Part shown: in pieces, positions 10,927-15,074 of the stretch
Numbering within the stretch: the first letter of the stretch is position 1
Layout: each line of letters starts with the position of its first letter
NCBI GenBank assembly: GCA_938023835.1
Contig: CALJDF010000145.1
Coordinates: forward strand, 1-36,374
DNA from: an uncultured Alphaproteobacteria bacterium
Lineage (GTDB): Bacteria; Pseudomonadota; Alphaproteobacteria; SHVP01
Length of the DNA: 36,374 bases
Reading direction: 5' to 3'
Notes under the pieces: generated by a model
Seen by the model: only the letters and a program-made list of their open reading frames with translations
Database searches by the model: none
What the model was told of the DNA's origin: nothing
Made by a program: the position numbers and the translations under genes

Positions 10927-12279
10927 ATGCATTCTTTCGTTTTTCGAGCGCTTCGCTTCGTTGCGCTCCTTTTTATCGGGTTCACGCTGTCCTGGGGCGC
11001 GCTGGCGCAGCAAACCACGGTCTCCGACGCCGACCTCGAGGCGGCCTACGACAAGGCGTTTCAAGAGTTATTCCGGGATCCTGGAAATCTCGACAAATCA
11101 TTCCGATTTGCCGAACTTGCGGTGCGGAAGGGCAATTTTGAGGCGGCCATCAGCGCGCTCGAGCGCATGTTGCTGATCAATCCTGATCTGCCTCGTGTGC
11201 GGCTCGAACTTGGCGTCCTCTATTTTCGAATCGGCTCGTTTGCGATTGCGCGGAGCTACCTAACCCGGGTTCTCCAGAGCCCGGACGCTCCACAGGAGGT
11301 TCAAGATCGTGTGCAAGTGTTTTTGGCGGAGATCGACAGTCGCCTAACCCGGAGCAGCCTTAGCGGCTCGGTATTCCTTGGTGCAAGGTTTTCAGACAAT
11401 GCCAACGCCGGTCCAAACAGCCCCAATGTTCTGGCAAACGGCAACGCCGCGACCCTGGACGACGAATTCACCAACAAGTCCGACCGCAACTACTTCGTCT
11501 CGGCCCAGCTGAACCACAGCTACGACCTGCTCACGCAACGGAGCGAGCTAATCGAAAGTTCGGGCACACTCTACGTGTCGGAACAAGATCGCCAAAAACA
11601 GCTTGATATTGTGTTTTTGGAAGCGCAATCGGGGATTCGAGGGCCGTTCCTTCAGGACGCCATCCCCGGTACAACACTAAAGCCCTACGTACTCGGGAAC
11701 ATGGTTTATCTCCAGGACTCTTGGTACCAGTTCAGTGTCGGATTGGGGGCCAACATGGTTCTCCCGCTTACCCAGCGTTTGCGTGCGACGATCAACCTAG
11801 AACGCAAATCTGAACACTTCCGGAATGATTCCAACCGGCTGAACGCATCACAACAAACGGGCGTCGAAAACTCACTGCGCGCCAATGCCACATACGTCCT
11901 TACCGAAACACAGCAAGTCGCGCTTCGTCTTTCTGCCACGAGCCAAGAAGCCAAAGAAACATTCAATGCCTTTCGCGAGTACCAGATCGGCACGAGTTTC
12001 ACACAGTTGGTTTCCTTTGAATCGCTTGATGCCGGCCCGGCGAGCGTCACCGCCAGCATTACCCGCTCGATGAGCCGATACAACTCGCCGAACCCGACGG
12101 TCGATCCGAACCGGAAGCGACAAGACCAGGAATGGAACTGGTCGATCACTGGCGCCGTTCCGGCATCCAAAGACTGGACAATCGTTAGCACCTTCCAGCG
12201 CTCCACCATCGACAGTTCGCTACCGAACTTCGAAAACCACTCTGCGGCAATAACGCTTGGCGCTTCACGCCGATTCTAG
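10927..12279 (+). CDS. TPR plus outer-membrane beta-barrel protein, Slam/DUF560 (type XI secretion)-like
   Basis: Signal peptide MHSFVFRALRFVALLFIGFTLSWGALAQQ; TPR-like RFAELAVRKGNFEAAISALERMLLINPDLPRVRLELGVLYFRIGSFAIARSYLTRVL; then amphipathic strands ending in ITLGASRRF (terminal Phe). Start at 10927 preferred for the signal peptide; 10858 is possible. Confidence 0.75.
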   Translation: MHSFVFRALRFVALLFIGFTLSWGALAQQTTVSDADLEAAYDKAFQELFRDPGNLDKSFRFAELAVRKGNFEAAISALERMLLINPDLPRVRLELGVLYFRIGSFAIARSYLTRVLQSPDAPQEVQDRVQVFLAEIDSRLTRSSLSGSVFLGARFSDNANAGPNSPNVLANGNAATLDDEFTNKSDRNYFVSAQLNHSYDLLTQRSELIESSGTLYVSEQDRQKQLDIVFLEAQSGIRGPFLQDAIPGTTLKPYVLGNMVYLQDSWYQFSVGLGANMVLPLTQRLRATINLERKSEHFRNDSNRLNASQQTGVENSLRANATYVLTETQQVALRLSATSQEAKETFNAFREYQIGTSFTQLVSFESLDAGPASVTASITRSMSRYNSPNPTVDPNRKRQDQEWNWSITGAVPASKDWTIVSTFQRSTIDSSLPNFENHSAAITLGASRRF

Positions 12280-12302
12280 GAAACCTTCAGGAGGCCAATA
12301 CT

Positions 12303-15074
12303 ATGGGCGGCACCACACGAATTGGATTGGCGGCGCTTTCGGTATTCTTCATCGCGCACGCAACGATCGCGCTCGCTCAGTCAAGCAAAGAAATCGGCGT
12401 CGCCGCGGCGGTCAACCCGCAAGCGCAGGGCACGCCGCCGTCATCGAAACCTCGCACCCTCAACGTCGGTGTCAACGTTCAGACCAACGAACGCATCGTC
12501 ACGTCCGAAGGCGGGCAAGCCCAAATGCTTTTCCTCGACGAGAGCGCATTTACGGTGGGCCCCAATTCGGACGTTGTCCTCGACGAGTTCGTTTTCGACC
12601 CTGATACCGGGACCGGGCGGATAGCCTTGACCGCCGCGAAAGGCGTCTTTCGCTTAGTCGGCGGCAAGATCAGCAAACGCACGCCCGTAACGCTAAAGAC
12701 ACCGACCGCCGTCATCGGCATTCGTGGCGGGATCGCGCTGGTGAACGTCGCACCCAACGGTGCGACACAAGCGACCTTCTTGTTCGGCGACCAAATGACC
12801 GTTGGCACGGCCGGCGGCAACCGCGAGGTCTCCAGGCCAGGATTCACCGTTTCTGCCGACGATCCCGACGCCCCGCCCTCTAATCCTACCCCTGCAACGC
12901 CCGCGCAATTGAATGCTGCCCTCGGTGGGCTTGAGGGTAGTGCGCCGCCGCCCGCGGATGGTGGTGATGGTGGCGGGGGCGGACAGGCGGCCGGGGGCGG
13001 CCAGGTACCCACCGACCAAAATGTTGCTGACTCCGGCATCGGTGAGTTGGGCTCGAACAACAATCCGGACGCCCTAGCGGGTGCCCCACCGCCACCGCCC
13101 GGACCGGTTGCCGGTGGTGCCCCCGGCGGAGCCCAAGACACGACCCAAGACGCCCAGCAAAACAACCAGCTTCAGAGCAGCGACAACCTGGGAACCAGCA
13201 TCGCCGGCAATTTCGTTGGGCGGATCACCCACGCCACACGCCTTGCGGGTCCAACCTCTCCCTTTGGTCTTGATTTGGAACAGAGCGGTCTCGATAAGCC
13301 GTTTCAAACCGCGTCGGTTTCGGGCGGCACGTTCACGGCGACCCCTGGATCGTCTAGCACGTTCAGTGCGCCGATCAGTTCAGGAACGACGACCGGAATC
13401 ACTGCCACTACTAACCCATTTGGTAGCGGCACCCTGACGGGCACCAGCGTTCTGTTTTCCGACAACGAGTATATTCTCTATGAACTCACCGACAACGGCG
13501 ACGGGCACAGAGTCCTCGCCTTTGCGGGCATTCCCACGACGACATTCCCGACGACCGGCGCGACATTCTATGCAGCCCGAGACGACTTCATCCTGGGCTC
13601 AAAGGTATTGGGTATTCCCGCCGCAGATGGCGGCAACCTGTCCATATCGCAAAGCGGCCCGGACGCCGCAATCTATTGGGATACTTCGCTCTCGAGCACG
13701 GCACAACGTCCCTTCGCCGCCATTTCGGGCGGCGTGAGCGGGACTGGCTCGTCACAGCAGATTGCGTTCTCCTTCTTCGTTGGCCAGGTTGTGTTCGAGT
13801 CCAACGGCGAGAAGGTCATCGAGGGTGATTTTGGCGGGTTCTCACTTCTGAACGGCGACGGCACCTCGCCACGTTTCTTTGACGGGATCTTTGGATCGGC
13901 TTGTAACTGTGACGATTCAATTTCGACCGAAACGGAGTACGACTTCTACGGCAAGGACGAACCCGATCATTTTATCCTGACTAGCGGTGAGGTAACCCAG
14001 TTCAGTTCGATCTCGCCTTTCGAACGTCGGCGCGGGATCGAAACCGTCCAGACCTATAACCCCGCCATCAATTTCAACAAGACGACCGATACGTTAGGTA
14101 CTCGAAGCGCCCATTTGGCATCTACGACGGGTACCAGCTTCAACCGCCAACTCACGGGCTGGTCGGCCGGCGTCGGTGTGGCGGTAACAAAATCGAGTGG
14201 TGCACTGGCGCCGTTCTCGTTTACGAACCGCCTCGGTGATCCGAACGGCGTCAAGATCCAGACAGACCCCAACACCAACAAAGTTGCGGCAACGTTTGAC
14301 TTGACGAAATCGAGCGGTGGCAGCGATCTCCTCTTCGTGACCCTGGGTGACAAGGACACACGCTTTGGAACGTCCCCCGCAACAAACGGCCACAGCGCAT
14401 TCTTTGACGACAAAGATTTTGCCTCGACGGTCGATTGCACCAGCTCTGCCTGCGAGAGCACCGTAACCTTCAACAGCACCACCGCCTCGGACGGTGTGGT
14501 CGGCATGGCCTCCTTAGAAGATATTCCCGGGCTGAGCGGCACCTACGCCAGTTGCAGTTATTGCTCATGGGGCATCATCGCCGGCGAAATCGAGCCGAGT
14601 TCGCCATCAACACACGAGCGCTTCATGGGCTTTTGGACCACTGGTGCCGTCCAGGACTTCGCGCAAATCCCAACGTCGGGATCAGCCTCTTACGGCGGGC
14701 ATATGGTGGCGTTTGTGGAAAACAATGGAGCTCAATACATCGAGCACGGCGACGCGACCTTTAGCGTCAATTTCGCCGGCGCAACAAGCAATGGAACCTT
14801 GACGGTCACCAATTTCGACGGGGGTGGCTTGACCGGATCGTTTAGCGCCATTGGGTCAAACGCCCCGGGTCATTCGTTCACCGGTTCGGTGACCGGAACC
14901 GGTGCTCTTTCTGGCGTGAGCGGCAGTCACGCGGGTTCGTTCTACACCAATCAGGCCGGGAACGCGGTTGCAGGCGTCGGCGGCAAGGTCTTCGGGTCTG
15001 GAACGGTGGGCGGAAACGCTTATCGATTTGCCGGCGTACACGTGCAAACCTGTTCTACGGGCGCTTGCCAGTAG
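12303..15074 (+). CDS. Secreted FecR-domain protein with Pro/Gly-rich linker and TbpB-like (Slam cargo-type) C-terminal barrel domain
   Basis: Signal peptide MGGTTRIGLAALSVFFIAHATIALAQ; FecR-type LNVGVNVQTNERIVTSEGGQAQMLFLDESAFTVGPNSDVVLDEF...TPTAVIGIRGG; linker PPPADGGDGGGGG...APPPPPGP; C-terminus IPTSGSASYGGHMVAFVENNGAQYIEHGDATFSVNFAGATSNGTLTVTNFDGG...GSFYTNQAGNAVAGVGGKVFGSG. aggagg ribosome-binding site upstream. Confidence 0.8.
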   Translation: MGGTTRIGLAALSVFFIAHATIALAQSSKEIGVAAAVNPQAQGTPPSSKPRTLNVGVNVQTNERIVTSEGGQAQMLFLDESAFTVGPNSDVVLDEFVFDPDTGTGRIALTAAKGVFRLVGGKISKRTPVTLKTPTAVIGIRGGIALVNVAPNGATQATFLFGDQMTVGTAGGNREVSRPGFTVSADDPDAPPSNPTPATPAQLNAALGGLEGSAPPPADGGDGGGGGQAAGGGQVPTDQNVADSGIGELGSNNNPDALAGAPPPPPGPVAGGAPGGAQDTTQDAQQNNQLQSSDNLGTSIAGNFVGRITHATRLAGPTSPFGLDLEQSGLDKPFQTASVSGGTFTATPGSSSTFSAPISSGTTTGITATTNPFGSGTLTGTSVLFSDNEYILYELTDNGDGHRVLAFAGIPTTTFPTTGATFYAARDDFILGSKVLGIPAADGGNLSISQSGPDAAIYWDTSLSSTAQRPFAAISGGVSGTGSSQQIAFSFFVGQVVFESNGEKVIEGDFGGFSLLNGDGTSPRFFDGIFGSACNCDDSISTETEYDFYGKDEPDHFILTSGEVTQFSSISPFERRRGIETVQTYNPAINFNKTTDTLGTRSAHLASTTGTSFNRQLTGWSAGVGVAVTKSSGALAPFSFTNRLGDPNGVKIQTDPNTNKVAATFDLTKSSGGSDLLFVTLGDKDTRFGTSPATNGHSAFFDDKDFASTVDCTSSACESTVTFNSTTASDGVVGMASLEDIPGLSGTYASCSYCSWGIIAGEIEPSSPSTHERFMGFWTTGAVQDFAQIPTSGSASYGGHMVAFVENNGAQYIEHGDATFSVNFAGATSNGTLTVTNFDGGGLTGSFSAIGSNAPGHSFTGSVTGTGALSGVSGSHAGSFYTNQAGNAVAGVGGKVFGSGTVGGNAYRFAGVHVQTCSTGACQ

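Follow-up and report, generated by a model that had tools for sequence, protein, structure and literature searches.

We describe a pair of adjacent genes in a 36,374-nucleotide contig of an uncultured Alphaproteobacteria bacterium (CALJDF010000145.1; hereafter, the window) and propose that they encode the secretor and the cargo of a divergent branch of the type XI secretion system (T11SS; Slam/DUF560), in which a FecR domain of the cargo would serve as an envelope sensor or relay. We assign this reading a probability of roughly 0.64. It draws on established homologies and domain architecture, on the conserved adjacency of the two genes and on the finding that strong matches to the cargo tail occur only in genomes that carry the outer-membrane protein (OMP). 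The OMP gene (10927..12279) and the gene for a 923-aa FecR-domain protein (12303..15074) both lie on the + strand, as do all features given below, and 23 bp separate the OMP stop (12279) from the cargo ATG (12303), just as an initial annotation of this DNA had described. The secretor/cargo interpretation offered in that annotation is supported by our sequence comparisons and structure models, with translocation itself being a prediction.

The initial annotation read the first open reading frame (ORF) as a signal peptide, TPR and barrel protein, and all three parts were recovered. A probable Sec signal peptide (10927..11007), recognized by eye and helical in the AlphaFold model, is followed by a periplasmic TPR/helical domain (11026..11346; helices at residues 57-163 of the 473-aa frame), in which Pfam detected the TPR repeats TPR_19 and TPR_9 and, weakly, TPR_Slam; the last of these was matched in 20 of 27 relatives. 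The AlphaFold model, which was built from a 70-sequence alignment and has a mean pLDDT of 93 (plasmid-derived rows were left out of the alignments for the structure models), contains exactly 14 long strands, all C-terminal to the helices. These strands (residues 166-179, 209-223, 231-243, 251-262, 273-285, 288-302, 308-321, 335-347, 352-363, 372-385, 395-408, 422-435, 440-453 and 460-472) form a beta-barrel at 11353..12276 (residues 166-473). Lack of a 14-strand Slam-type barrel was one of the outcomes that the initial annotation had named as contrary to its proposal. The frame is open from GTG 10858, which gives 473 aa; ATG 10927, which gives 450 aa, is the likelier start because an ordinary signal peptide (MHSFVFRALRFVALLFIGFTLSWGALA-QQ) follows it directly.

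The barrel also bears out the suggested relationship to Slam proteins. The barrel-only profile matched ten SlipAM-type proteins at 60-125 bits over all or nearly all of its 310 positions, and a comparison of the OMP-family barrel with the SlipAM-type barrel in hhalign gave a probability of 99.9%. Nine ordinary Slams, among them at least eight of these ten proteins, were scanned with Pfam, and all nine scored far above the cut-off for PF04575. Furthermore, L107, a member of the window's own clade that is FecR-linked and has a FecR-barrel cargo and a cyclase neighbor, also exceeded this cut-off (35.1 vs 22 bits). When the 5,456 ORFs in the collected loci were searched, the profile matched the OMP family and only one further candidate (L067), which adjoins a cyclase. 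In a tree obtained by a quick search with SH-aLRT support only, a fully supported branch separated the 79 FecR-linked OMPs from the 10 ordinary Slams sampled. Because of the barrel homology to PF04575 proteins, the match of L107 and this split in the tree, we assign the OMP to the T11SS OMP superfamily, within which it represents a divergent branch, and not to the generic porins or the polysaccharide exporters.

The second gene is preceded by an AGGAGG ribosome-binding site (12289..12294), read in the sequence. Its product begins with a probable signal peptidase I (SPI) signal peptide (12303..12377; ...ATIALA-Q), in which no lipobox cysteine was seen by eye, in agreement with the earlier view that the cargo is not a lipoprotein. 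A FecR domain follows at 12492..12767 (residues 64-155; PF04773, 31.7 bits, cut-off 24), and this domain was matched in all 17 proteins of alignment A2. Next come a Pro/Gly-rich low-complexity linker (12855..13232; about residues 185-310) with 36% P+G across 110 residues and low pLDDT at the start of the modeled part, a middle beta-rich region that is possibly a first lobe (13233..14144; modeled with low confidence) and a modeled handle/pedestal domain of the C-lobe (14145..14681). A conserved Cys motif (14553..14573) stands ahead of the barrel; it reads CSYCSWG here and commonly C-x-C-x3-WG, and the motif followed by Trp/Phe-Gly is kept in 35 of 40 FecR-barrel proteins. The C-terminal segment (14682..15062) was identified by profile, AlphaFold and Foldseek as an eight-strand barrel of the TbpB/NHBA/fHbp type, a feature that the initial annotation had treated as essential to its case.

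Several lines of evidence support this identification. A cargo-tail profile made from the C-terminal 310 residues of 22 long cargos matched NHBA (3.6e-9), fHbp (5e-5) and LbpB (4e-4), and it also detected the cargos flanking ordinary SlipAM/Slam genes (L133, L136/L156), which served as a positive control. In Pfam, residues 788-885 gave a sub-threshold match to FHBP_C, and sub-threshold matches for the C-terminal barrel were seen in several relatives as well. AlphaFold predicted eight strands in the tail, and all 37 Foldseek matches of the cargo model at E<=1e-3 were TbpB, LbpB, HpuA, fHbp, NHBA or hemophilin. Because the query has several domains, with half of its length modeled poorly, most of these matches had low TM-scores; the C-terminal domain of NHBA reached a target-normalized TM of 0.66. 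The smallest form of the cargo, at about 410 aa, consists of FecR joined to the barrel by a linker of ~105 residues (L095, L096, L098). A genome search also showed two FecR cargos of ~1,620 aa with two handle-barrel units each (L086, L089).

The pairing of the two genes is conserved. In G001, a genome of the same genus, they are adjacent and show ~79% (OMP) and ~73% (cargo) identity to those of the window. The OMP was present in 27 of 96 relatives and, by profile search, in 79 of 387 genomes of the class; a contig scan with the single protein as query returned one relative, already among the collected loci. A survey of adjacency, which the initial annotation had proposed as a check, showed that a FecR gene lies <=1 kb from the OMP gene in 57 of the 79 clade loci, usually directly downstream on the same strand, and at none of the 10 loci of ordinary Slams. 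Because 96 genomes contained 129 FecR genes, the expected frequency of such adjacency by chance is well under 1%. Moreover, the OMP is present in every one of the 35 genomes that match the cargo tail strongly (E<=1e-14), and these genomes are spread across many families (Fisher p=4e-28 for the co-occurrence, a value that overstates independence because the genomes are related). An OMP gene without adjacent cargo, together with one to six FecR-barrel genes elsewhere, was found in G002, G260, G386 and G326. In G002, a genus mate of the window genome, the OMP gene lies 24 bp from dmsC (L041 6368-8728), which in the window is the neighbor of the cargo gene; therefore, the cargo is missing from that site and the OMP has been retained, and two FecR-barrel cargos are encoded elsewhere in that genome (L150, L151). 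The unlinked cargo copies and the retention of the OMP fit one secretor for several cargos. G260 contains six unlinked FecR-barrel cargo genes (L138-L143) and one OMP gene.

A further recurrent neighbor is a gene for a CHASE2 adenylate cyclase. The initial annotation mentioned neither this frequent neighbor nor the likeness of the set to NsrA-CyaK of Sinorhizobium meliloti nor the FecR partners that lack a barrel. A CHASE2-Guanylate_cyc gene (~740-aa product) lies <=4.5 kb from the OMP gene in 37 of the 79 clade loci and in none of the 10 loci of ordinary Slams, and both domains were confirmed in all seven cyclases scanned. At some loci (L055, L071 of Shinella sp. and L072 of Paracoccus aminophilus pAMI5), the cyclase belongs to the same gene run as the pair. 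In contrast, no cyclase lies near the pair in the window or in G001, nor was a CHASE2 adenylate cyclase found in the window genome (G000; 87% complete, 303 contigs). FecR genes were found <=5 kb from CHASE2 genes even where the OMP is absent (33 of 129). The recurrent pairing, often beside a receptor that makes cyclic AMP (cAMP), suggests an export system that also serves signal sensing. On rhizobial plasmids of Shinella and Ensifer (L071, L074), the FecR and CHASE2 cyclase genes adjoin NHLP bacteriocin export genes. In Paraburkholderia aromaticivorans pBN1 (L077 5707-8305), FecR, OmpA and CHASE2 genes stand in a row, which is another outer-membrane partner for the FecR/CHASE2 set.

From these observations, we infer a working model in which both proteins would cross the inner membrane via Sec and the OMP, with its TPR repeats on the periplasmic side, would fold into a 14-strand barrel. 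The barrel and the TPR repeats would take up the cargo, recognizing its C-terminal eight-strand barrel, and the OMP would pass at least the C-terminal, TbpB-like lobe through the outer membrane, this lobe being the part predicted to end outside. The N-terminal FecR domain, on its flexible linker of ~110 residues, may act as an envelope sensor or relay, and in many relatives it probably reports to an inner-membrane CHASE2 adenylate cyclase, with cAMP as the presumed output.

Several observations weigh against the secretor/cargo reading. Pfam gave no match to PF04575 in the window OMP at E<=1; this reflects the limited sensitivity of a single model applied to a single sequence, and many members of the clade fall under or near Pfam detection for this family. 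In Foldseek searches, the nearest solved folds were BcsC, PelBC and 14-strand porins, and no Slam structure was among the PDB matches, so that the OMP fold could be compared with other barrels only. The N-terminal half of the modeled cargo region has low confidence, and the co-occurrence statistic is subject to the relatedness noted above. Finally, a TbpB-like barrel was recognized at 26 of the 57 FecR-adjacent loci, and at as many as 31 the FecR partner has no recognized barrel, a figure that is an upper bound (L111 went undetected although it is part of the tail alignment). The barrel is, therefore, not a constant part of the partnership, and the many barrel-less partners weaken a pure secretion reading. 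For these partners, either the OMP also acts as a receptor or the barrel has been lost repeatedly.

On account of these barrel-less partners, the chief rival is a purely signaling outer-membrane receptor like NsrA-CyaK, in which the TPR-barrel would be a surface receptor that translocates nothing, the FecR protein would be wholly periplasmic and pass the signal on to a cyclase, or another sensor, in the inner membrane, and the TbpB-like barrel would merely be a periplasmic binding or plug domain. Linkage to FecR is commoner (57 loci) than the recognized barrel (26 loci), and CHASE2 cyclases are near whether the barrel is present (15 of 26 loci) or not (15 of 31). There are precedents for such a receptor. 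In S. meliloti, NsrA, which is required for plant-signal perception through CyaK according to two reports (PMC7529298, PMC13001267), combines FecR and TPR repeats, both detected by Pfam, with a C-terminal outer-membrane barrel, directly upstream of the CHASE2 adenylate cyclase CyaK (L073 4229-9837, pSymB), and a cluster encoding a CHASE2 cyclase, a phosphodiesterase, a FecR outer-membrane protein and a TPR protein is described in Campylobacterota (PMC9239204). However, NsrA is one chain of 1219 aa where the window has two genes, no TbpB-like domain was found in it, and its barrel showed no detectable homology to that of the OMP (E=0.22). NsrA was accordingly rejected as a true homologue, and because the barrels are not detectably related, the window set resembles it in architecture and not in descent. 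The occurrence of the OMP in 35 of 35 genomes with strong tail matches and the unlinked cargo copies, as for a shared secretor, also speak against a receptor of this kind, as does the lack of a cyclase beside the pair in the window and in G001, and we regard it as unlikely. The secretion and receptor readings would be reconciled by a threaded trans-envelope sensor, in which the OMP displays the TbpB-like lobe on the surface and the linker-tethered FecR domain stays periplasmic, relaying the binding of an outside ligand to an inner-membrane receptor, e.g., a CHASE2 adenylate cyclase. This arrangement is possible but doubtful; if true, type XI secretion would be part of a signaling pathway.

Two other identities were rejected. 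If the TPR-barrel exported polysaccharide in the manner of BcsC, PelB or PgaA and had no relation to the neighboring FecR protein, the presence of BcsC and PelBC among the top Foldseek matches and of glycosyltransferase genes next to one Azospirillum locus would be accounted for, but the TM-scores to BcsC/PelBC are low (0.31-0.39), the barrel has 14 strands and it is homologous in sequence to PF04575. The scanned neighbors of the window pair include no polysaccharide genes, and the genes that recur beside the OMP are those for FecR and CHASE2; this explanation is very improbable. The PF04773 match alternatively raises FecI/FecR/FecA-type iron regulation with FecR as an anti-sigma factor, which we find still harder to credit: the protein has a probable N-terminal signal peptide and no cytoplasmic anti-sigma segment, the scan of neighboring genes showed neither a sigma factor nor a TonB receptor, and the OMP is not a TonB-dependent receptor. 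A LapA-type retention module was also discarded, the NCBIfam match being weak (E 0.002; 18 bits vs a cut-off of 50) and overlapping the FecR domain.

Among known systems, the window pair shares with the T11SS (DUF560/PF04575) an OMP with signal peptide, TPR and a 14-strand barrel that is homologous end to end, and a neighboring gene for a partner with a C-terminal eight-strand barrel, as in cargos of the TbpB, fHbp, NHBA and hemophilin type. Unlike ordinary Slams, the window-type OMPs form a clade of their own with CHASE2 cyclase neighbors, and the window cargo has an N-terminal FecR domain in place of a known ligand domain and shows no lipobox. The Campylobacterota cluster, which was compared by description only, likewise groups FecR and TPR proteins with a CHASE2 cyclase, but no T11SS relation or TbpB-like cargo is described for it (PMC9239204). 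In the Burkholderia BiofilmReg operon, an exported FecR protein (with LysM) is encoded beside a CHASE2 sensor, but a histidine kinase replaces the cyclase and no TPR-barrel or TbpB-like domain is reported (PMC5192318).

The initial annotation also pointed to a FecR-like head in place of a known host-iron ligand domain, and FecR is indeed absent from the ten architectures listed for T11SS cargo in 2025. It is not mentioned in the main text of two T11SS surveys, and a full-text search that covered neither subscription papers nor supplements returned no paper in which FecR appears together with DUF560, surface lipoprotein assembly modifier or type XI secretion. Only seven T11SS OMPs have experimentally verified cargo, all in one animal-associated cluster (PMC12282271). 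The window-type branch occurs in other alphaproteobacteria; its cargo head is unlisted, and genes for CHASE2 adenylate cyclases recur in its neighborhood. Confirmation of this system would link a family for protein secretion across the outer membrane to second-messenger signaling. It would also provide a compact setting for asking how CHASE2 receptors learn of signals from beyond the outer membrane, which NsrA-CyaK has left unanswered. Both the barrel and the conserved Cys-WG motif offer simple points for testing.

In the window, a scan of neighboring genes placed a block of fatty-acid oxidation genes, which includes a MerR regulator, to the left of the pair and a DmsC/molybdopterin oxidoreductase block to its right. 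Both blocks lie on the opposite strand and, therefore, the OMP and cargo genes form an isolated two-gene unit. Two further genes of the FecR-cargo type were seen in the window's own genome. Each holds its frame for hundreds of codons but is interrupted by in-frame TAG stops, two in the first (L037 124-2928, contig C219) and one in the second (L038 1-1827), whose contig (C31) begins within the gene. TAG is the normal stop of both genes of the window pair too, and these two genes are pseudogenes or something else. Full-length matches on named plasmids were all alphaproteobacterial, from Azospirillum, Shinella and Paracoccus.

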